This document shows, piece after piece, positions 7,543-18,622 of a stretch of DNA of 64,000 nt (position 1 is the first letter of the stretch; every line of letters begins with the position of its first letter). Below the pieces are notes generated by a model that saw nothing but the letters and a program-made list of their open reading frames with translations, searched no databases and was not told the DNA's origin. The DNA is from Phreatobacter cathodiphilus. Its GTDB lineage: Bacteria; Pseudomonadota; Alphaproteobacteria; Rhizobiales; Phreatobacteraceae. The stretch lies in NCBI RefSeq assembly GCF_003008515.1, contig NZ_CP027668.1:1356001-1420000 (forward strand). The letters are read 5' to 3'. A program made the translations under genes and the position numbers.

Positions 7543-8715
7543 TCAGGCCGTCGCCAGCTTGCGGAACCTGTTGGAGCGCTTCGGGTGCCACCACTTGCCG
7601 GCGATCACCGTGCCCTCGGAGACGATCTTCCTGTCGCCGATCAGGTGCTCGCCCACCACGTCGACATAGTCGAACTTGCCCTCCTTGATGGAGAGGATGG
7701 TGGCGTCGCCCGCCGAACCGGGCTTCAGGCTGCCGAGCTCCGGGCGCTTCAGCGCCATGGCGGCGTTCACCGTCGACGCCGCGATGACGCGGTCGAGCGG
7801 CATGCCGAGGCAGAGGAACTTCGACAGGGTCGTCACCTGGTCGAAGGCCGGGCCCTCGATGCAGAGCGTGTGCACGTCGGAGGAGATGACGTCCGGCTCG
7901 AAGCCGTTCGCCAGCATGGCCCGCGTCGTCTTGAACGAGAACGAGCCCTTGCCATGACCGATGTCGAAGATGACGCCCTTCTTGCGGGCGGCGACGACCT
8001 CCGGCTTCACCGCGCCCTGGGCGGTGACCGGTGCATTGGGGAAGGGGCGGAAGGCGTGGGTCAGCACGTCGCCCGGACGCAGGCGGCCGATGACGTGCTC
8101 GTAGGAGGGCGGCGGATGGTCGATATGCGCCATCAGCGGCATGCCCACCTCGTTCGCCACCTGCAGCGCCATGTCGAGGGCCGCCTCGCCGTTGGTGCCG
8201 GAGGAATTGCGGCCGACGCGCACCTTGATGCCGACGATCAGGTCGCGGTTCTCGTCCGCCACCTTGGCGCAGTCCCAGGGGTTGAGATGGTCGATCTCGC
8301 GGCTCTCGCCGACCATCACGCGCTTGTCGAAGCCGTAGATGCCGGCATGGCTGACATGGAGATAGGCAAGGATACGAACCTGGCTCTTCTCGATGACGTG
8401 CTTGCGGAAGCCCATCCAGTTGCCGGGGCCCGCCGAGCCGGTGTCGATGGCGGTGGTGACGCCCGAGGTGCGGCAGAACTCTTCAGCGTCGATGCCGAGC
8501 GAGGTCCCGCCCCAATAGACGTGGGTGTGCAAGTCGATGAGACCGGGAGTGACGATATAGCCCGACACGTCGCGGATCTCGGTGCCGGGGCCGGGCTTCA
8601 GATCCTTGCCCACGGCGGCCACCTTGCCGCCGGTGAAGGCCACGTCGCGCACCCCGTCGATCTTCTGCGAGGGGTCGATCACGCGGCCGCCGCGCAGGAT
8701 CAGGTCGAAAGTCAT
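7543..8715 (-). CDS. Amidohydrolase/deacetylase family metallohydrolase
   Basis: This 390-residue protein belongs to the amidohydrolase superfamily (dihydroorotase-like). It starts with the beta-sandwich motif DLILRGGRVIDPSQK and has the metal-binding HxH in PGLIDLHTHVYWGG (about residues 58-71), later metal-ligand regions LMAHIDHPP and SSDVHTL, and the C-terminal GSAGDATIL region. The ATG at 8713-8715 has GGAG upstream and gives the expected N-terminus. It is divergent from a creatininase-family gene, so both may act on the same cyclic or linear amide. The substrate is not evident. Confidence 0.85.
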   Translation of the reverse strand: MTFDLILRGGRVIDPSQKIDGVRDVAFTGGKVAAVGKDLKPGPGTEIRDVSGYIVTPGLIDLHTHVYWGGTSLGIDAEEFCRTSGVTTAIDTGSAGPGNWMGFRKHVIEKSQVRILAYLHVSHAGIYGFDKRVMVGESREIDHLNPWDCAKVADENRDLIVGIKVRVGRNSSGTNGEAALDMALQVANEVGMPLMAHIDHPPPSYEHVIGRLRPGDVLTHAFRPFPNAPVTAQGAVKPEVVAARKKGVIFDIGHGKGSFSFKTTRAMLANGFEPDVISSDVHTLCIEGPAFDQVTTLSKFLCLGMPLDRVIAASTVNAAMALKRPELGSLKPGSAGDATILSIKEGKFDYVDVVGEHLIGDRKIVSEGTVIAGKWWHPKRSNRFRKLATA

Positions 8716-8837
8716 CAGATGCTCCGCTTGCTGCAAAGGCCGGTCTGGTGCATTGCGCGGCCCTTGTCCGGCGCGCACATTGCGCGCCGGAGCGCGGCTT
8801 GCCAACAGCCGTGACATGAGCCTTGCGGAGACCTCCC

Positions 8838-9635
8838 ATGCCGGCCCGTCACTGGGGTGACCTGAAGACCACCGATTTCGACCGGCTCGATCCGGCGACC
8901 ACCGTCGCCGTCCTTCCGCTGGCCGCAATCGAGCAGCACGGACCCCATCTGCCGGTCTCCACCGACACCTCCATCATGCAGGGCATGATCGAAACGGCCT
9001 TCCCGCTGGTCGGACCGAACGTCACCGCGCTCTTCCTCCCCATCGAGGCGGTCGCCAAGTCGAACGAGCACCTCCATTCGAAGGGCACCCTGACCCTCTC
9101 GGCCGAGACAGTGCTGAAGAGCTGGATCGAGATCGGCGAGAGCGTGAAGCGCGCCGGCATCGACAAGATCGTGCTGCTGACCTCCCACGGCGGCAATCTC
9201 GACCCCATGCGCGTCGTCGCCCGCGAACTGCGCATCCGCTTCCGCCAGCTCGCCGTGGTGACGAGCTGGACCGCCTTCGGCCGCCCGCCCGGCCTCTATG
9301 GCGACCTCGACATCAAGCACGGCATCCACGGCGGCGACGTCGAGACCTCCTTGATGCTGCACTTCCGCCCGGACCTCGTGGACATGAGCCGGGCGAAGCT
9401 TTTCGAACCCGTCATGGTGTCGATGGAGAAGGAGTTCGCCTATCTCCGGCCGACGCTGAACCACGCCTTCGGCTGGATGGCCCAGGACATCAACCCGGAC
9501 GGCGCGGCGGGCGACGCCTCGCGCGCGACGGCGGAGAAGGGCAGGGCGACCGCCGCCTTCCAGGCGGCGGAATTCGTCAGATTGCTCGACGACATGGCGC
9601 GCTTCGACACCGGCCGGCTGTGGGCGCCGGCCTAG
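8838..9635 (+). CDS. Creatininase family protein
   Basis: This 265-residue protein has the creatininase/creatinine amidohydrolase fold. Metal ligands typical of the family are visible: AAIEQHGPHLPVSTD (Glu32, His34 and Asp43) and TSHGGN near residue 115, with IHGGDVETSLML further on. The ATG at 8838 is supported by GGAG at 8827-8830; a TTG at 8823 is less likely. Family members include creatinine amidohydrolase, formamide hydrolases in riboflavin-type pathways and MftE-like peptidases, so the substrate is open. Its stop codon overlaps the convergent PAS gene's stop by 4 bp. Confidence 0.85.
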   Translation: MPARHWGDLKTTDFDRLDPATTVAVLPLAAIEQHGPHLPVSTDTSIMQGMIETAFPLVGPNVTALFLPIEAVAKSNEHLHSKGTLTLSAETVLKSWIEIGESVKRAGIDKIVLLTSHGGNLDPMRVVARELRIRFRQLAVVTSWTAFGRPPGLYGDLDIKHGIHGGDVETSLMLHFRPDLVDMSRAKLFEPVMVSMEKEFAYLRPTLNHAFGWMAQDINPDGAAGDASRATAEKGRATAAFQAAEFVRLLDDMARFDTGRLWAPA

Positions 9636-10453
9636 TCGATGATGTCGTCGGCCTCGGTCCGGCGCAGGTCGAAGGCGAAGACGCGGGTCGCGGACTCGCC
9701 TCTCAGGAGATCCAGTCCGAAGGCCTTCCAGCGCACGCCGCGCACCTGACCGCCCGGGAAGGTCATGACGAACTGGCCGGACAGCGCCTCGCTGGAGAGC
9801 AATGCGCCGCGCACGATCCCTTCGAGCCGATCGGACAGGCTGCCGACGAGCTCGATGACGTTCTGCCTGATCGCCATACGCCTGTCCCGCAGGTTGAGGC
9901 ATTTGGCGAAGGCGGTGTTGCAGTTGAGGATCGTGCCGTCGCGGGCGAGGACGGCGATGCAACTGGTCGACTCGGCTATCATCGTCTCGAGGTTTGCCCG
10001 CATGGCGCCGACGACCGCGGCCTGCCGCCGTTCCTTCTCGCAGTTCCGGTAGAGGCCGACGACGACGGGATGGCCTGACAGCCATTTCAGGACGCAGACG
10101 GATTCGATCTGGCTACCGGCATGGTCGAGGTCGTCGAAACGGAAATGGTCCGGGCCAGCGCTGCCGGTGTCGATGGCCTGTTTCAGATGGGCGCGGAACT
10201 TGCCGGCATCCTCGTCATTGGCCTGCTTCAGGAGGTCCGTCAGCGTCGCCTTGATGACCACGGTGCGGTCGTTGGCATCGAGGGTCTCCCAGCGCACGCG
10301 CTCGGTCTTCAGGTCGATCGACCAGCTGTGGATGCGCAGCAGCCGGAGGAGTTCGCTCTCCCGCGGCGCGCCGCCGGGCTCGTCGGCAAACAGCGGCGGC
10401 GCCGCGATCTGGGGCAGTCCCGTGGTGGCAGTCGGCGACAGAAGCAGGGACAT
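9632..10453 (-). CDS. PAS-domain protein without an output domain
   Basis: This 273-residue protein appears to hold two PAS-like sensory modules: a divergent one at about residues 30-130 (HSWSIDLKTERVRWETLD resembles a PAS core) and a clearer one at about 150-265 (IAVLARDGTILNCNTAFAKC). No kinase, GGDEF, EAL, HTH or methyl-accepting region follows. It might sense a ligand or redox state and pass the signal by protein contact. It has its own upstream region of 135 bp. Its TAG overlaps the convergent creatininase stop. Confidence 0.7.
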   Translation of the reverse strand: MSLLLSPTATTGLPQIAAPPLFADEPGGAPRESELLRLLRIHSWSIDLKTERVRWETLDANDRTVVIKATLTDLLKQANDEDAGKFRAHLKQAIDTGSAGPDHFRFDDLDHAGSQIESVCVLKWLSGHPVVVGLYRNCEKERRQAAVVGAMRANLETMIAESTSCIAVLARDGTILNCNTAFAKCLNLRDRRMAIRQNVIELVGSLSDRLEGIVRGALLSSEALSGQFVMTFPGGQVRGVRWKAFGLDLLRGESATRVFAFDLRRTEADDIID

Positions 10454-10588
10454 AACCGTGCCCTCTCTTTCAACCGATCATCCCAAAAATCCATAAAAAA
10501 AGCGAGAAAAGAGAAGGGAAACAGCGGCTTAACGATCAAGCTTGCCGCCGGTTAACGAACCGGACGGGCGGGGCGCCGCCCGGCGGTT

Positions 10589-11470
10589 TCACGCCCCCAG
10601 CGGCTTGACGTCCACGGCGACCGAGATGTCGTGGTCGCCCGCCGCGATCACCACGCCGCCATTGGGCGCCACGTCGACGAAGTCGCGGCCGATGGCGAGC
10701 ACGATATGATCCTCGCCGACGATCAGGCCGTTGGTCGGATCGAGCCCCCACCATCCCAGCGCCGGCCCGCACCACAGCGACACCCAGGCGTGGGTGGCGT
10801 CGGCGCCTTCCAGCCGCGGCTGTCCGGCGGGCGGTATGGTGCGCAGGAAGCCGGAGACATAGGCCGCCGGCAGGCCGAGTCCGCGCAGGCCGGAGATCAT
10901 GATGTGCGAGAAGTCCTGGCACACGCCCTTGCGCATGGCGAAGGCGCGCGCCGCGGGCGTCGAGGTGTCGGTGGCGCCGGGCGCATAGGTGAAGTCGGAC
11001 TGGATGCGCTTCGCCAGGTCGAAGGCGGCCTCGAGGATCGGCCGTCCCGGCGGGAAGGAGGCACTGGCATAGGCGCGGATCGCCGGATCGCGCGGCACAT
11101 AGGTCGAGGGAAACAGCGCATGGACCGGGGAAGCGGGCGACATGTCGGCGCTGGCGAAGGCGGTCTCGCGCACGCGCTCCCAGGGCGGGTCCATGCCGGG
11201 CAGGGGGCGGCTGAAGCCCGCCACCGTGATTTCGGCGCGCATCTCGATCTGCAGCGACCGGTGCGGCCGGTCGAAGTCGAGGAAAATCCGCCGGTTGCCG
11301 AAGAAATCGGTATCGTCGCGCCGCATGGCCGGCGCCGGGGTGATCTCGATGTCGCAGCGCGCCACCGTCTGCCCCGGCCGGTCCACCGGGACGATACGCA
11401 GCACGTGCTGGGCGAAGACCACCGGTCGCGCATAGGTGTAGTCGGTGACCTGGCGGACCTGGTAGCGCAT
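10589..11470 (-). CDS. Transglutaminase-like domain protein
   Basis: This 293-residue protein has an N-terminal beta-strand domain (MRYQVRQVTDYTYARPV; the bacterial transglutaminase-like N-terminal region) followed by a transglutaminase-like core. The catalytic triad is intact: Cys184 in KGVCQDFSH, His227 in ATHAWVSLW and Asp244 in GWWGLDPTNG. Such enzymes act as peptidases or acyl transferases. The start overlaps the upstream gene's stop (TGATG), so it is translationally coupled to the ATP-grasp/alpha-E gene. It is the last gene of a three-gene operon. There is no signal peptide, so it should be cytoplasmic. Pathway and product are unknown. Confidence 0.85.
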   Translation of the reverse strand: MRYQVRQVTDYTYARPVVFAQHVLRIVPVDRPGQTVARCDIEITPAPAMRRDDTDFFGNRRIFLDFDRPHRSLQIEMRAEITVAGFSRPLPGMDPPWERVRETAFASADMSPASPVHALFPSTYVPRDPAIRAYASASFPPGRPILEAAFDLAKRIQSDFTYAPGATDTSTPAARAFAMRKGVCQDFSHIMISGLRGLGLPAAYVSGFLRTIPPAGQPRLEGADATHAWVSLWCGPALGWWGLDPTNGLIVGEDHIVLAIGRDFVDVAPNGGVVIAAGDHDISVAVDVKPLGA

Positions 11471-13971
11471 CAGAACAGATCGCCGGCGGCTGGGCCGACG
11501 GGGGTCGCCCCGTCGCGGTGGGTGAAATAGCGCTCGGAGATCTCGTCGGAGATGGCCATCAGGCGCTGCTCGATGGCGAGGATCTGGCGGCTGTCGAGGG
11601 TGTGGGCATCGGCGGTCTGCAAGTCCACGCGCGCGCGCGCGATCAGCTTTTCCGGCACGTTCAGCCTCCCGTCGGAGACGTGGTCCGGCAGGTGGGCGAG
11701 GTGGTCGGCGATCCGCTCCACCTGGAAGGCGACCGAGCGGGGATTGTTCGGGTCGAGGATGATGAGGTCGAGCACCGGGGCGCGCGCCGCGATCATCACG
11801 TAGCGGCGCCGGTAGGTAATCTGGCTGTCGGCCAGCGCCAGCAAGAGGTCGAGACCGGCCGTGCCCGTCCGCTGGTCGGAGAAGTTGCGCCCGAACCGAC
11901 AGATCGCCAGCGCCCGCTCGATGCGCTTGCCGATCTTCAGGAAGCGCCAGCCGATGAGCTGGTTCATGTTCTCCTGGGCGAGGCCGGAGAAGACCGCCGA
12001 CAGCCGCAGGCCCGCCTCCACCCGGTCGATCGCCCCGGATTCGGGCTTCCGGCCGTCCTCGGCGAGGTGGACCATGTCGCCGATCGTCTTCCAGGCGTCG
12101 GGGGAGAAGCGGTCGCGGATGACGGAGGCGGCGTTGAGCGCGGCACGCGACAGCGACAGGAGCCCGCCGGGCCGGTCGCCGTGCAGCACGGCGGCCGCCA
12201 CCGCCTGCGGGTCCGTCAGGCCGGTGTCCTTCGGCAGGGCTTCCCACGCAACCAGCAGGTCGACGAGCCGCTTCAACATGTCCGGACCGGTCGATTCGCC
12301 GCTGCCGACATGGTCGCCGAGGGCGCGCAGAAGCCGCAGCGTCGCTTCCGCGCGCTCCATGTAGCGGGCGAGCCAGAACAGGTTGTCGGCTGCGCGGCTC
12401 GGCAGCGAAGAAGTGGAGCGCCTGAGTTCGACCTTGTCGGGCGTCGGCAGCAGCGTCGTCTCCGCTACCGGCCCCTCCGCCAGCACGCAGACATCGGCCG
12501 AGCGGCCGTCGCGCTGCATCGTCACGGCGCGGGCGTCGATGCGATCGCCGATGCGGCAGAAGCCGCCGGGCATCACCTCCCAGCCGTCGCCCACCCGGGT
12601 GAGGAAGAGGCGCAGGATGAAGGGGCGGGGCTCCAGATAGCCGTCGTTCCACACCGGCATAGTCGAGAGCTTCACCACCTCCTGGGCGACGAAGTCGGAG
12701 CCGCGCAGGCGGATCTCCTCGGCGAGCCGCAACCGCTTGTCGGGTGGCAGGCTGGAGGCGAGCACCGCGCCCTCGTCGAGGAGGCCGGGAATGGTCTGGG
12801 TGAAGGCCGGCGCGATGACGAAGGAGTCGAGGTCGGCGATGACGGCACCGCGCTCGATCGGCTGGCCGCACCACCAGGTCGCGACGTGGGGAATGGCGAG
12901 GTCGCGCCCGAGCCGCGCCCGGGCAACGGAGGGCAGGAAGGCGAGCAGCGATCGCGCCTCCAGGACGCCCGAACCGAGGGCATTGGCGAGGGTCACCTTG
13001 CCGGAGCGGATGGCGTGGACGAGGCCGGCGACGCCGAGCTGCGAGCGCGGATTGAGCTCCAGCGGATCGGCGAAGTCGGCGTCGAGGCGGCGCCAGAGCA
13101 TGTCCAGCTTCTTCAGCCCGGAAACGGTGCGCACGTAGAGCGTGTCGTCGCGCACGGTCAGATCGGCGCCCTCGGCGAGCAGGAAGCCGAGATAGCGGGC
13201 GAGGAAGGCGTGTTCGAAATAGGTCTCGTTGAGGGGGCCCGGCGTCAGCACGGCGACGCGCGAATCCGTCGCCGCCGCGTGGGAGGAAAATTCCGAGCGC
13301 AGCGCCTGGAAGAAGCCGGCGAGCCGCTCCACCGGCAGGTTGCGGTAGATCTCCGGCAGCGAGCGCGACATGGCGAGGCGGTTCTGCAAGGCGTAGCCGG
13401 CCCCCGAGGGTGCCTGCGCCCTGTCGCCGAGCACCCACCATCGCCCATCGGGGCCGCGGCCGACGTCGACGGCATAGTAGAGGAGGTGCGAGCCGCCGCG
13501 CGGCTTGGTGCCGACCAGCGGTCTCAGATAGTCCGGCGATCCCGCGATGGTGGCGCCGGGCACGAGGCCGTCGCTGACGAGCTCGGCCGGCCCGAGCAGG
13601 TCCTTCAGAACGAACTCGAGAAGCTCGGCCCGTTCCCGCAGGCCCTCCGAGAGCGCGCGCCATTCCTCCGGCGCGATGACCAACGGCAGATGCGCCAGCG
13701 GCCAGGCCCGCTCGCCGTTCTTCGGGTCATCGTAGACCCGGTAGAAGACGCCGGAATCGCGCATGTAGCGGTCGGCCCCCGCGAAGCGCTTTTCCAGCTC
13801 GCGCGGCCCGAGATCGGCGAGGGTGGCGAGCACCGGCTGCCAGTGCGCCCGCGGTTCGCCCCGCTCGTCCAGGATCTCGTCATAGACGCCGGGCACGGGC
13901 TGATAGCGGGCCAGCATCGCCAGGATGCGCTCGGCGCGGTTGTCGCTCGTGCGTTGGCTGCGGAACGTCAT
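11470..13971 (-). CDS. Circularly permuted ATP-grasp and alpha-E domain fusion protein
   Basis: This 833-residue protein fuses two domains often encoded separately. Residues about 60-480 match the circularly permuted ATP-grasp type 2 family (DUF404/DUF407), with RDDTLYVR near 274-281 and the C-terminal part near 442-470 (NDGYLEPRPFILRLF, VMPGGFCRI). Residues about 523-815 form a helical alpha-E domain (DUF403), beginning SLPSRAADNLFWLARYMERA. ATP-grasp enzymes join a carboxylate to an amine using ATP, so peptide or amide bond formation is predicted. It sits 6 bp after the DUF2126 gene and overlaps the transglutaminase gene, so all three are one operon. No substrate has been assigned. Confidence 0.88.
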   Translation of the reverse strand: MTFRSQRTSDNRAERILAMLARYQPVPGVYDEILDERGEPRAHWQPVLATLADLGPRELEKRFAGADRYMRDSGVFYRVYDDPKNGERAWPLAHLPLVIAPEEWRALSEGLRERAELLEFVLKDLLGPAELVSDGLVPGATIAGSPDYLRPLVGTKPRGGSHLLYYAVDVGRGPDGRWWVLGDRAQAPSGAGYALQNRLAMSRSLPEIYRNLPVERLAGFFQALRSEFSSHAAATDSRVAVLTPGPLNETYFEHAFLARYLGFLLAEGADLTVRDDTLYVRTVSGLKKLDMLWRRLDADFADPLELNPRSQLGVAGLVHAIRSGKVTLANALGSGVLEARSLLAFLPSVARARLGRDLAIPHVATWWCGQPIERGAVIADLDSFVIAPAFTQTIPGLLDEGAVLASSLPPDKRLRLAEEIRLRGSDFVAQEVVKLSTMPVWNDGYLEPRPFILRLFLTRVGDGWEVMPGGFCRIGDRIDARAVTMQRDGRSADVCVLAEGPVAETTLLPTPDKVELRRSTSSLPSRAADNLFWLARYMERAEATLRLLRALGDHVGSGESTGPDMLKRLVDLLVAWEALPKDTGLTDPQAVAAAVLHGDRPGGLLSLSRAALNAASVIRDRFSPDAWKTIGDMVHLAEDGRKPESGAIDRVEAGLRLSAVFSGLAQENMNQLIGWRFLKIGKRIERALAICRFGRNFSDQRTGTAGLDLLLALADSQITYRRRYVMIAARAPVLDLIILDPNNPRSVAFQVERIADHLAHLPDHVSDGRLNVPEKLIARARVDLQTADAHTLDSRQILAIEQRLMAISDEISERYFTHRDGATPVGPAAGDLF

Positions 13972-13977
13972 GGTTCC

Positions 13978-16900
13978 TCAATGCACCGGCGGGCGGCGCA
14001 GGTCGAGGGTCGCCGGAAACTCTCCCGAGCGTTCGGCCCGCGGCGGATCGATCAGGCCCGGGGTGTGGCCGTGATCCTGGAACCGGGCGCGGCGGCGCGC
14101 CTCGGCCTCGTAGGCGTTGACGGGGAAGGTGTCGTAGTTGCGCCCGCCGGGATGGGCGACGTGATAGACGCAGCCGCCCATGGACCGCCGGCTCCAGATG
14201 TCGACCACGTCGAAGGTCAGCGGCGCATGCACCGGAATGGTCGGATGCAGGCCCGAGGGCGGCTGCCAGGCCTTGAAGCGCACGCCGCCGACGAACTCGC
14301 CGCTGCGGCCGGTGGCGGTCAGCGGGACGGGACGGCCGTTGCAGGTGACCGTGTGCCGTTCCGGCTGGAGACCCATGAGCCGGACCTGCAGGCGCTCGAC
14401 GGAGGAATCGACGAAGCGCACCGTGCCGCCGATCGCCCCTTCCTCGCCGAGCACGTGCCAGGGCTCCAGTGCCTGGCGGATTTCCATGCGGACGCCCGCG
14501 TGGTCCACCTGGCCGGCGAGGGGGAAGCGGAACTCGAACTGCGCCTCGAACCAGGCGGGGTCGAAGGCGTAGCCGGCGCGGCCGAGATCGCCGAGCACGC
14601 CGAGAAAATCCTCCCAGACGAAGTGCGGCAGCATGAACCTGTCGTGCAGGGCGGTGCCCCAGCGCACCAGCGGCCCGTCCTGCGGTTCCTTCCAGAACCA
14701 GGCGATAAGGGCGCGGATGAGGAGCTGCTGGGCGAGGCTCATCCGCGCGTCGGGCGGCATCTCGAAGCCGCGGAACTCGACGAGGCCGAGCCGTCCCGAG
14801 GGGCTGTCGGGAGAGAACAGCTTGTCGATGCACAGTTCCGTGCGGTGGGTATTGCCGGTGGAATCGACCAGCAGGTTGCGGAACAGGCGGTCCACCAGCC
14901 AAGGCGGCGGCGCTTCGCCCTCGCCGGGCTTCGGCACCATGCCCATGGCGATCTCGAGTTCGTAGAGCCCGTCGTGGCGGGCTTCGTCCACCCGCGGCGC
15001 CTGGCTGGTCGGGCCGATGAAGAGGCCGGAGAACAGGTAGGACAGGGAGGGATGGCGCTGCCAGTAGAGCACCAGGCTCTTCAGCAGGTCCGGCCGGCGC
15101 AGGAAGGGGGAATCGGCAGGCCTCGCGCCGCCCACCACCACGTGGTTGCCGCCGCCTGTGCCGGTATGGCGGCCGTCGAGCATGAACTTTTCCGTGCCGA
15201 GGCGGGCGAGCCGCGCCTCCTCGTAGAGCCCGCGCGTGATGGCGACGCATTCCCGCCAGGACGCGGCCGGATGCACGTTCACCTCGATCACGCCGGGATC
15301 GGGCGTCACCTTGATGACGTTGAGCCGCGGGTCCGTCGGCGGCGGATAACCTTCCACGTGGACGGTGAGGCCCAGTTCCTTGGCGGTGGCCTCGGTCGCG
15401 GTGAGGAGCTCCAGATAGTCCTCCAGCCGCTCGGTCGGCGGCATGAAGACGCAGAGCTTGCCGTCGCGCGGCTCGACGGCGAGCGCCGTGCGCACGGAAT
15501 TGTCCTCAGTCAGCACCTGCTCGACCTGCTCGGCGCGGTCCGCCTCCCGCTCGCGCTCCACCGAGACGCGCTGCGCGATGCGTCCCTCGATGTCCTGCGG
15601 GTCTGGGAGATCGGACGGCACCGTCCACGGGTCGGCGGCGACCACATAGGGGTACGACGCCGGCGGCACATAGGGCAGGGAGGCCAGCGGCAGGCGGTAG
15701 CCGACCGGACTGTCGCCGGGGACGAGGAAGAGCTTCTCGCGCTTCAGCTTCCACTTCTCCGTCATCCAGTTGGACTTCGCCGGTGCCGCGTTCCAGCGCT
15801 GGATCGGCAGCACGTAGCCGGAGGGGTGTGTCAGGCCGCGTTCGAAGACGCGGGCGATGCGGGCGCGGGCCTCGGCATCCTCGAGCTTGGAATCCAGCGC
15901 ATCCACGTTGACCGGAAGCTCCGCCTCCTTGATCACCCAGTGCGCCGGGTCCTCATAGGCCGGCAGCGCCGCCTCGCCGTCGAGGCCGAGCTTCTCGGCG
16001 ATGCCCGCGGCGAGCGCCCCGGCGCCGTCGATCGTCGCCGTGGTCGGCCCGTCCTCGCGCGCGATCAGGCTCTCGTCGCGCCAGACCGGCTTGCCGTCGC
16101 GCCGCCAGTAGAGGGCGAAGGTCCAGCGCGGCAGGCTCTCGCCGGGATACCACTTGCCCTGGCCGTAATGCAGGAAGCCGCCGGGTGCGAAAGTGTCGCG
16201 CAGCCGGCGGATCAGGGCGTCGGCGCGCTCGCGCTTGGTCGGGCCGACGGCGGCGGTGTTCCACTCCTCGCCCTCGTAGTCGTCGATGGAGATGAAGGTC
16301 GGCTCGCCGCCCATGGTGAGCCGCACGTCGGCCGCCGCGAGATCGGCGTCGACCCGGTCGCCGAGCGCGTCGAGCCGCTCCCAGGCCTCGTCCGAGAAGG
16401 GCGCGGTGACGCGCGGCCGCTCGTCGATGCGGTCCACCCGCATGTCGAAGGCGAACGAGACTTCCGCCGGGTCCACGGCCCCCGAGATCGGCGCCGCCGA
16501 GCGATAGTGCGGCGTCGCCGCCAGCGGAATGTGGCCTTCGCCGCAGAGCAGGCCCGAGGTCGGGTCGAGGCCGATCCAGCCGGCACCGGGGATGTAGATC
16601 TCGGTCCAGGCATGCAGGTCGGTGAAGTCCTTGTCGGTTCCCGACGGGCCGTCGAGGGCCTGCAGGTCGGGCTTGAGCTGGATGAGGTAGCCGGAGACGA
16701 ACCGGGCGGCGAGCCCGAGGCGCCGCGCCAATTGGACGAGCAGCCAGGCCGAATCGCGGCACGAGCCCGAAGCATTCTCCAGCGTCTCGTCGGGGGTCTG
16801 CACCCCCGGCTCCATCCGCACGATGTACCGGATGTCCTGCTGGAGCTTCTGGTTGAGGGCCACCAGAAAGTCGATGGTCTGCTTCGGCTCGCGCGACAGG

Positions 16901-17298
16901 CCGGCGAGGTAAGTCTCGAAGGCGGCATCGCCCTGTTCGGTGACGAGATAGGGCGCCAGTTCCTCCGCCAGCGCCGGCGCATAGGCGAAGGGGAAGGTCT
17001 CCGCATAGGCCTCGATGAAGAAATCGAAGGGGTTGACGACCGCCATCTCGGCGACGAGGTCGACGGTCACCGAGAACTCGGTCGCCTTCTCGGGGAAGAC
17101 GAAGCGCGCCAGCCAGTTGCCGTGCGGGTCCTGCTGCCAGTTCACGAAATGCTGCTCGGGCACGACCTTCAGCGAATAGCTCGGGATGGTCGTGCGGCTG
17201 TGCGGCGCCGGGCGCAGGCGGATCACTTGCGGGCCCAGCGTGACCGGACGGTCGTAGAGATAGCGCGTGACGTGATGCAGCTTCGCGAGAATGGCCAT
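13978..17298 (-). CDS. DUF2126 putative amidoligase with N-terminal transglutaminase domain
   Basis: This 1106-residue protein has an N-terminal transglutaminase-like unit with Cys180 (SGSCRDSAW), His229 (TDLHAW) and Asp245 (WIGLDPTSG) all present. A DUF2126 region then runs from about residue 320 to the end; DUF2126 is listed as a putative amidoligase. Conserved stretches are [14 protein letters not shown] and [17 protein letters not shown]. The ATG at 17296-17298 begins directly with the domain. It is the first gene of the operon and nearly leaderless with respect to the promoter proposed at 17307-17335. The family is widespread but its product is unknown; it probably modifies or makes a peptide. 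Confidence 0.88.
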
Positions 17299-17306
17299 GG
17301 CAACGA

Positions 17307-17335
17307 TGGGTAAAGGGTGACGACCGGCCGGTCAA
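17307..17335 (-). promoter_or_regulatory. Candidate promoter with overlapping palindrome, amidoligase operon
   Basis: Reading the minus strand, TTGACC and TACCCA are separated by 17 bases and placed just before the DUF2126 start codon. A perfect 12-bp palindrome, GACCGGCCGGTC (17322-17333), overlaps the -35 element and could be an operator. High GC raises the chance of such a palindrome by accident. Confidence 0.4.
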
Positions 17336-17452
17336 AGCCTGAGATGGCCCGGCGGATCGGGAGGCAAGCAAGGACCGCGCCGCCGTCATTCCTCCGGCGG
17401 GCTTCCCACCCGGGGCGAAGCGACCCATAACCTCGGCGCTGGAGAACCCGTG

Positions 17453-18622
17453 ATGCCGCTGACCATTCCCCATGCCGACGACCATGCCGACCTCAGGGAG
17501 GCCGTCCGCGACCTCTGCGGGCGCTACGACGACGCCTATTGGCGCAGGATCGACGAGGAACGGGGCTATCCGGAAGCCTTCACCGAGGAATTGACGAAGG
17601 CCGGCTGGCTCGCCGCGCTGATCCCGGCCGAATATGGCGGCTCAGGCCTCGGGCTGACGGAAGCCTCCATCATCATGGAGGAGATCAACCGGTCCGGGGG
17701 CAATTCCGGCGCCGTCCATGGTCAGATGTACAATATGGGCACGATCCTGCGCGGCGGCTCCGACGAGCAGAAGGCGCGCTATCTGCCCATGATCGCGGCG
17801 GGCGAGCTGCGCCTGCAGACCATGGCGGTGACCGAGCCGACCACCGGCACTGACACGACGAAGCTGAAGACCACGGCGGTCCGCAAGGGCGACCGCTGGG
17901 TCGTCAACGGCCAGAAGGTCTGGACCAGCCGCGTCCAGCATTCCGACCTCATGGTGCTCCTCGCCCGCACCACGCCTCTCGACCAGGTGCGCAAGAAGTC
18001 GGAGGGGCTGTCGGTCTTCCTCGTCGACCTGCGCGAGGCGATCGGCAAGGGCATGACCGTCCGGCCGATCCGCAACATGGTCAACCACGAGACCAACGAG
18101 GTCTTCTTCGACGATCTGGAAATCCCCGCGGAGAACCTGATCGGCGAGGAGGGCAGGGGCTTCAAGACGATTCTCTCCGGCCTCAACGCCGAGCGCACCC
18201 TCATCGCGGCGGAGTGCATCGGCGACGGCTACTGGTTCATCGACCGGGCGAAGAAATACGGCGCCGAGCGAATCGTCTTCGACCGCCCCATCGCGCAGAA
18301 CCAGGGCATCCAGTTCCCCATCGCCCGCGCCTATGTGAACATCCGTGCCGCCGACCTCATGCGCTTCCAGGCCGCCGCCCTCTGCGATGCCGGCCAGGAC
18401 TTCGGCGCCGAGGCCAACATGGCCAAGCTGCTGGCGGCCGACGCCTCCTTCGAGGCGGCCAACGCCTGTATCCAGACCCACGGCGGCTTCGGCTTCGCGG
18501 CGGACTACGACGTCGAGCGAAAGTTCCGCGAGACGCGACTCTACCAGGTGGCGCCGATCTCCACCAATCTCATCCTCGCCTATGTCGGCGAGCACGTGCT
18601 GGGCATGCCCCGCTCATATTAG
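17453..18622 (+). CDS. Acyl-CoA dehydrogenase
   Basis: This 389-residue flavoenzyme oxidises an acyl-CoA to the enoyl-CoA using FAD. Family marks are the N-terminal helical domain, MAVTEPTTGTDTTKLKT in the middle beta domain (about 125-141), VNGQKVWTSR, and the C-terminal QTHGGFGF region followed by RKFRETRLYQVAPIS. The expected base position before the GGFG loop cannot be fixed by eye. ATG 17453 was chosen over the GTG at 17450 because GGAG (17441-17444) is then 8 bases away. It is divergent from the amidoligase operon; no acyl-CoA ligase or thiolase is adjacent, so the substrate is unknown. Confidence 0.88.
   Translation: MPLTIPHADDHADLREAVRDLCGRYDDAYWRRIDEERGYPEAFTEELTKAGWLAALIPAEYGGSGLGLTEASIIMEEINRSGGNSGAVHGQMYNMGTILRGGSDEQKARYLPMIAAGELRLQTMAVTEPTTGTDTTKLKTTAVRKGDRWVVNGQKVWTSRVQHSDLMVLLARTTPLDQVRKKSEGLSVFLVDLREAIGKGMTVRPIRNMVNHETNEVFFDDLEIPAENLIGEEGRGFKTILSGLNAERTLIAAECIGDGYWFIDRAKKYGAERIVFDRPIAQNQGIQFPIARAYVNIRAADLMRFQAAALCDAGQDFGAEANMAKLLAADASFEAANACIQTHGGFGFAADYDVERKFRETRLYQVAPISTNLILAYVGEHVLGMPRSY

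Follow-up and report, generated by a model that had tools for sequence, protein, structure and literature searches.

The analyzed window is a 64,000-nucleotide stretch of the Phreatobacter cathodiphilus genome (contig NZ_CP027668.1, positions 1,356,001 to 1,420,000), the minus strand of which carries an operon of three co-directional genes, here designated P0001, P0002 and P0003 (Table 1). They encode a transglutaminase (TG)-like unit joined to a DUF2126 domain, an ATP-grasp/Alpha-E fusion protein and a separate TG-like protein. This operon has a counterpart module, and in many other proteobacteria the two are found joined. The best explanation of the data as a whole, to which we give about an even chance, is that the two modules form an amide-bond system of nitrogen starvation.

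Table 1. Features of the DUF2126 operon in the window (GS, glutamine synthetase)
Feature	Position	Strand	Description
Sigma-54-like -24/-12 element CGGCGCGGTCCTTGCT	17367..17382	minus	Begins 84 nt upstream of the P0001 start
P0001	13978..17298	minus	1106 aa; N-terminal TG-like unit (~1-262) and DUF2126, a candidate GS-fold carboxylate-amine ligase
P0002	11470..13971	minus	833 aa; circularly permuted ATP-grasp (~27-498) fused to Alpha-E (~523-816)
P0002 halves			ATP-site residues lost in the ATP-grasp; conserved charged residues in Alpha-E
P0003	10589..11470	minus	293 aa; separate TG-like protein, Cys184-His227-Asp244 intact

The operon and its second module

All three open reading frames (ORFs) and their domains were re-derived from the ORF list and by Pfam analysis, which confirmed the coupled three-gene layout and domain content given in a preliminary description of this DNA, including the 6-nt gap between P0001 and P0002 and the one-base stop/start overlap between P0002 and P0003. 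According to Pfam, P0001 matches Bact_transglu_N (3.7e-26), Transglut_core (1.1e-17) and DUF2126 (E-value 0, all 826 profile positions covered), P0002 matches CP_ATPgrasp_2 (3e-132) and Alpha-E (6.7e-66), and P0003 matches Bact_transglu_N (2e-22) and Transglut_core (4.6e-15). The NCBIfam scan assigned no family to any of the three proteins. Their proposed cytoplasmic location is plausible, as no signal peptide was seen by eye (no predictor was run). Since 84 of the 299 genomes sampled from the phylum contain DUF2126, and the best 80 matching contig loci, with alphaproteobacterial or close titles, share 62–74% identity, the operon does not appear to be a product of chance.

The host genome (4.49 Mb, single contig) contains one DUF2126, two Alpha-E and four Bact_transglu_N profile matches. 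At 2.05 Mb, genes for an intact ATP-grasp, Alpha-E and a TG-like protein stand in a row, with the gene of the proteasome relative Anbu located divergently upstream. This Anbu is the only match in the genome (4.5e-84 with 5loy), and no Anbu was detected among the ORFs of the P0001–P0003 locus. A closed, stand-alone three-gene system, as described earlier, was rejected; it is contradicted by this intact set and by the contiguous sets found elsewhere.

ATP-grasp sequences were collected from 120 loci (80 best and 40 picked) and the host genome, with ORFs assigned by the best phmmer match. Type D comprises the fused ATP-grasp/Alpha-E proteins nearest to P0002 (n = 104, P0002 included), and type A the proteins nearest to the intact paralogue at 2.05 Mb (n = 25, paralogue included); the sets omit ORFs scoring under 150 bits and any D candidate that lacked an Alpha-E match. 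Among the 299 surveyed genomes, Alpha-E was present in 156 and Anbu in 102. All 84 genomes with DUF2126 and 101 of the 102 with Anbu contained Alpha-E, and DUF2126 and Anbu occurred together in 51. Type A was found in 155 genomes at E < 1e-200 and type D in at least 86 (84 at about 500 bits or more, and two added from their fused genes). Of these type-D genomes, 85 also encode type A, the exception being a 74% complete genome (G149). DUF2126 and type D were found together in 75 genomes among the matches listed.

Joined sets were looked for in 40 of the 84 DUF2126 loci, which were picked by hand, mostly outside Alphaproteobacteria, and counted by reading the output for pieces of 10.6–20 kb: 21 contained both ATP-grasps, three had type A without type D, 13 had type D without type A and three had neither, and Anbu was present in 11. 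Of 16 genomes noticed, among the 51 with both, to have DUF2126 and Anbu on one contig, 15 have them 158–931 bp apart and the last one has them 7.3 kb apart. In Burkholderia stagnalis, one strand carries ATP-grasp A, Alpha-E, TG, TG-DUF2126, ATP-grasp D/Alpha-E and TG in succession. The modules also occur apart: the Caballeronia and Azospirillum plasmid loci contain only the DUF2126 half within 22-kb pieces, and the Tsukamurella, Deinococcus and Hymenobacter plasmid loci contain only type-A sets, with no DUF2126 in the stretch seen.

Sigma-54-like element and predicted nitrogen control

Upstream regions were scored against a sigma-54 -24/-12 consensus (maximum 15.5). The element upstream of P0001 (Table 1) scores 13.5, and its string has no other match in the window at up to two mismatches. 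All 12 genus genomes compared, the window genome among them, have an element of this kind, which scores 13–13.5 and begins 62–84 nt upstream. In the genus alignment of this region, the GGC.C and TTGCT parts of the element are invariant; by eye, TTGCT is the sole invariant run of five upstream besides TTACC next to the start. Scores of at least 13 and at least 13.5 were reached by 24 and 11 of 893 control upstream regions of other genes in the loci, by 19 and eight of 118 DUF2126 upstream regions, and by nine and seven of 23 type-A ATP-grasp upstream regions, the related sequences in these counts not being independent. The scan for sigma-70-type promoters over positions 10300–17600 found none.

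Expression data on a related gene set point in the same direction. In Burkholderia cenocepacia H111, the genes I35_5080-83 encode DUF404/407, DUF403, a TG-like protein and a large TG-domain protein; under nitrogen limitation, their log2 changes in the ntrC mutant relative to the wild type were -8.2, -9.4, -9.4 and -6.0, a stronger effect than that on glnA (-4.8), and they are listed as common targets of sigma-54 and NtrC (PMC5491218). Induction of Anbu under nitrogen limitation is cited in PMC5666114. By analogy, the operon is predicted to be under sigma-54 control, probably with NtrC.

The same data are compatible with degradation or salvage, in which the TG-like enzymes and Anbu would hydrolyze amides or isopeptides for nitrogen, and DUF2126 would recapture ammonia or an amine like GS. 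The B. cenocepacia genes share their NtrC/sigma-54 control with urease, urea transport and glnA (PMC5491218), and Bact_transglu_N, DUF403, DUF404 and DUF407 correlate with urea-metabolism domains in metagenomes (PMC3597751). In addition, 39 genomes have PF10005, and by their coordinates at least 13 of these carry such a zinc-ribbon gene in the vicinity of DUF2126, Alpha-E or Anbu. However, Anbu is reported in PMC6376114 to show neither peptidase nor amidase activity in vitro, and the PF10005 search gave no match in the host genome, so that we consider salvage rather unlikely. Four of four PF10005 proteins scanned whole contain Peptidase_Mx (PF15887), and this zinc-ribbon protein is a candidate for a further part of the system. 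Such genes stand beside DUF2126 or Alpha-E genes in several proteobacteria, at L130:5191-6309, L139:14719-15912, L146:14849-16372 and L160:6099-7238, and relatives occur in the Caballeronia, Halomonas and Hymenobacter plasmid loci.

As for the region upstream of the type-A operon, it contains in the genus (L224-L233) a strongly conserved block, TGCGAAAGSCCCCTTCCCT ... TTTRCCGYTAGCTTG, which may be a promoter or leader.

Active sites of the ligase-type and TG-like domains

Judging from its aligned sequence, the ATP-grasp part of P0002 is unlike a working ligase and is probably a pseudoenzyme. Ten positions are invariant in 25 of 25 type-A sequences; none of them is kept in 39 of the 104 type-D rows, one in 46, two in 15 and three in four, P0002 keeping one. 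The ten, which are mostly missing from type D, include the E-x-N pair, two lysines and the Gly-rich loop. The best anchored positions, the neighbors of which are conserved in both families, correspond to E185, N187, D453 and K493 in the paralogue; all 25 type-A rows keep these residues, against 2, 0, 0 and 26 of the 104 type-D rows, respectively. P0002 has Gly182, Arg184, Ile452 and Ala492 instead. Entry 3n6x of the PDB belongs to type A and has intact motifs. In a tree of 81 sequences (53 D and 28 A), a single branch with 100/100 support parts D from A; its D rows were P0002, the rows from loci L121-L160 and every fourth alphaproteobacterial row, two of them with very long branches.

The P0002 model has a predicted local distance difference test (pLDDT) score of 89, and its ATP-grasp part superimposes on 3n6x with Z 43.7 over 443 residues; given the lost residues, the fold appears to be kept and the site not. 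The loss of ATP-binding sites, which the preliminary description had named as a finding that would speak against its reading, was thus found for this domain in the alignment. For type A, the ATP-grasp of the Anbu operon of Y. bercovieri is reported to release phosphate from ATP (PMC6376114). In Cp1B, a ligase of the same fold, alanine mutants of R139, D141, E163 or N165 lose or nearly lose activity (PMC12568646). Glutathionylspermidine synthetase, the YgiC/YjfC peptide-spermidine ligases and Cp1B resemble the P0002 ATP-grasp fold with Z of about 20–23. The E-x-N motif reads E330-Y-N332 in E. coli GspS, and the activity of Cp1B depends on E163 and N165 (PMC12568646); P0002 has Gly and Arg in the corresponding motif. 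In the MAFFT alignment, D318 and K533 of GspS are aligned to D172 and K393, and E330/N332 are displaced by three residues. Since the hhalign comparison of the intact ATP-grasp profile with E. coli GspS alone was not significant, the equivalence of the E-x-N pair to that of GspS is putative and based on motif and spacing.

The second part of P0002 presents a different picture. Residues E539, R540, R546, R619, G663, G681, E685, R686, P744 and R745 of Alpha-E are conserved in 100–104 of the 104 D rows and in 24–25 of the 25 A rows. Because these residues are conserved in both types and the ATP-grasp site is lost, the alignment suggests that Alpha-E is the constrained part of P0002. Comparison of the Alpha-E part with PDB structures matched only apparently generic helical bundles.

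If the ATP-grasp of P0002 used an altered site for catalysis, as the preliminary description implies by counting two ligases, the operon would encode a pair of ligases and a pair of thiol hydrolases acting in series on one peptide. The fold is kept in a model of pLDDT 89, as are shared residues such as D169 and R454, and some residues are particular to the fused family, for example R184 (96/104) and G192 (103/104). Nevertheless, no fused sequence keeps more than three of the ten type-A-invariant residues and an intact paralogue is present in the same genome, which makes such activity quite unlikely; P0002 as an ordinary ATP-grasp ligase was rejected on the same count.

DUF2126 is the ligase candidate of P0001. 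Its model most likely represents a GS-fold domain: it matches glutamine synthetases with Z of about 10 (best 10.5 over 282 residues, root mean square deviation 5.1) and YbdK with Z 9.3. E332, E672, H719, E841 and R843 of P0001 are invariant in 120 of 120 rows (one short row excluded); by motif, they are candidates for the metal and phosphate residues of GS. DUF2126 is accordingly a putative ATP-dependent carboxylate-amine ligase. Of the two ligase-type folds proposed earlier, the GS-like one thus stands with its invariant Glu, His and Arg residues, and that of P0002 is present as an ATP-grasp fold with its site lost. DUF2126 is like GS and YbdK in its modeled fold and differs from GS, YbdK/GCS2 and PafA in being much longer and fused to TG. 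A diverged DUF2126 relative (L149:7709-10736, 713 aa) is located beside a separate TG-like gene and not fused to one.

The two Cys-His-Asp triads listed in the preliminary description proved correct and nearly invariant. C180/H229/D245 of P0001 is kept in 120 of 121 aligned TG-DUF2126 rows, and C184/H227/D244 in all 105 rows of separate TG proteins closest to P0003 (Asp in 104 of 105, with one gap). The model of the P0001 TG unit matches 3isr with Z 12.1. In PDB sequence searches, relatives of the TG units were matched and none of DUF2126 was found. The TG units of P0001 and P0003 are putative hydrolases or transferases. A fourth Bact_transglu_N protein of the host genome (G000:C1:4221881-4222711), about 33% identical to the P0001 TG unit, has relatives in the genus.

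Proposed mechanism and known systems

In the proposed nitrogen-starvation system, nitrogen shortage would turn the operon on through sigma-54, probably with NtrC. The GS-fold DUF2126 of P0001 would couple a carboxylate with an amine at the expense of ATP, giving a small peptide-like amide or one attached to a target, and the TG unit of P0001 together with P0003 would cut or exchange such amides by Cys-His-Asp chemistry. The pseudo-ATP-grasp of P0002 would carry and place the Alpha-E domain, and P0002 would most likely partner the intact ATP-grasp/Alpha-E/TG/Anbu set from 2.05 Mb; this partnership with the type-A set is predicted. The product may be a peptide-like tag or metabolite, as suggested earlier. 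A more specific version, a two-locus nitrogen-starvation pathway in which the conserved pseudo-ATP-grasp serves to carry Alpha-E, with an activity of its own not described so far, and teams up with the intact ATP-grasp from the Anbu set, seems unlikely as it stands; if true, these proteins with a GS-fold ligase and thiol amidases would make and recycle an undescribed amide-linked nitrogen compound or protein mark.

Several points weigh against the proposed system. The P0001 model is middling (pLDDT 73.7), a Z near 10 is little above that of common arrangements, and hhalign of DUF2126 with two GCS2 groups gave no significant match. The coupling of the genes is loose: nine of the 84 DUF2126 genomes lack type D among the matches listed, some of them incomplete or with the locus at a contig end, and DUF2126 is missing from 11 of the at least 86 type-D genomes. 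DUF2126 upstream regions scoring at least 13 numbered 12 of 39 in L121-L160 and seven of 79 in the rest, so the sigma-54-like element is not general in Alphaproteobacteria. A simple pattern detected no NtrC palindrome in the 200 nt upstream of P0001. Since the type-A operon has no shared sigma-54 site in 10 genomes of the genus, one alone scoring 13, the two modules do not appear to be under one promoter here. As for B. cenocepacia, the main text of PMC5491218 does not contain I35_5084 and I35_5085, and thus covers four of the six Burkholderia genes; the large TG protein (BCAM1236) is identified as a putative TG-DUF2126 by the gene order of B. stagnalis. Finally, any activity, product or complex of the operon proteins is so far a prediction.

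The kind of system is already known from prediction. Rv2566-type proteins were predicted to combine TG with a carboxylate-amine ligase domain of the GS-type superfamily (PMC2588565), and PMC6376114, PMC5666114 and PMC3597751 cite Iyer et al. 2009 for the prediction of amidoligase systems with peptide synthesis. Like the Rv2566-type family, P0001 has an N-terminal TG-like domain fused to a C-terminal GS-superfamily ligase domain, according to Pfam and the model, and like both groups of systems the operon has ATP-grasp, Alpha-E and TG neighbors. Added here are the site loss in the fused ATP-grasp, the two modules that also occur joined and the sigma-54-like element, new details that make the system testable. 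Rv2569c is presumably a TG-like relative. Its description as a cell-wall serine protease (PMC11081392) does not fit a cytoplasmic TG. The ATP-grasp, Alpha-E and TG families are common to the Anbu operon (PMC6376114, PMC5666114) and the window operon, but the latter lacks Anbu and has DUF2126 and a pseudo-ATP-grasp fused to Alpha-E. A literature search for the string DUF2126 found no paper, and the titles and abstract openings searched, which did not cover Iyer et al. 2009, contained no pseudo-ATP-grasp in this family.

Protein tagging, in which an amino acid, amine or peptide would be conjugated to proteins and removed by TG or Anbu, is very unlikely: PMC2588565 groups the Pup ligase with Rv2566-type proteins in a single ligase superfamily and Iyer et al. 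suggested tagging for the Anbu operon (quoted in PMC6376114), but according to PMC2588565 no small Pup-like ORF occurs in the gene neighborhoods of the family, and with junctions of 6 nt and -1 nt the operon itself has no space for such a gene.

The Alpha-E, ATP-grasp and TG families and Anbu are widespread and have no settled function in the literature examined. The findings on the proposed nitrogen-starvation system point to a protein to assay for catalysis, a protein to treat as a partner and a growth condition in which to seek the product. P0002 would be a partner rather than a catalyst to assay because of the evidence for a pseudoenzyme, and the sigma-54-like promoter of the DUF2126 operon suggests a nitrogen-related growth condition.

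The operon is adjoined by a creatininase-family gene (8823-9635) and an amidohydrolase-family gene (7543-8928) of the window. On S. meliloti pSymB, glycogen phosphorylase and glgB genes are located downstream of the D-type operon (L181:12880-17552), and two families resembling glycogen phosphorylase and glgB by eye were present in 11 and nine of the 80 alphaproteobacterial loci.

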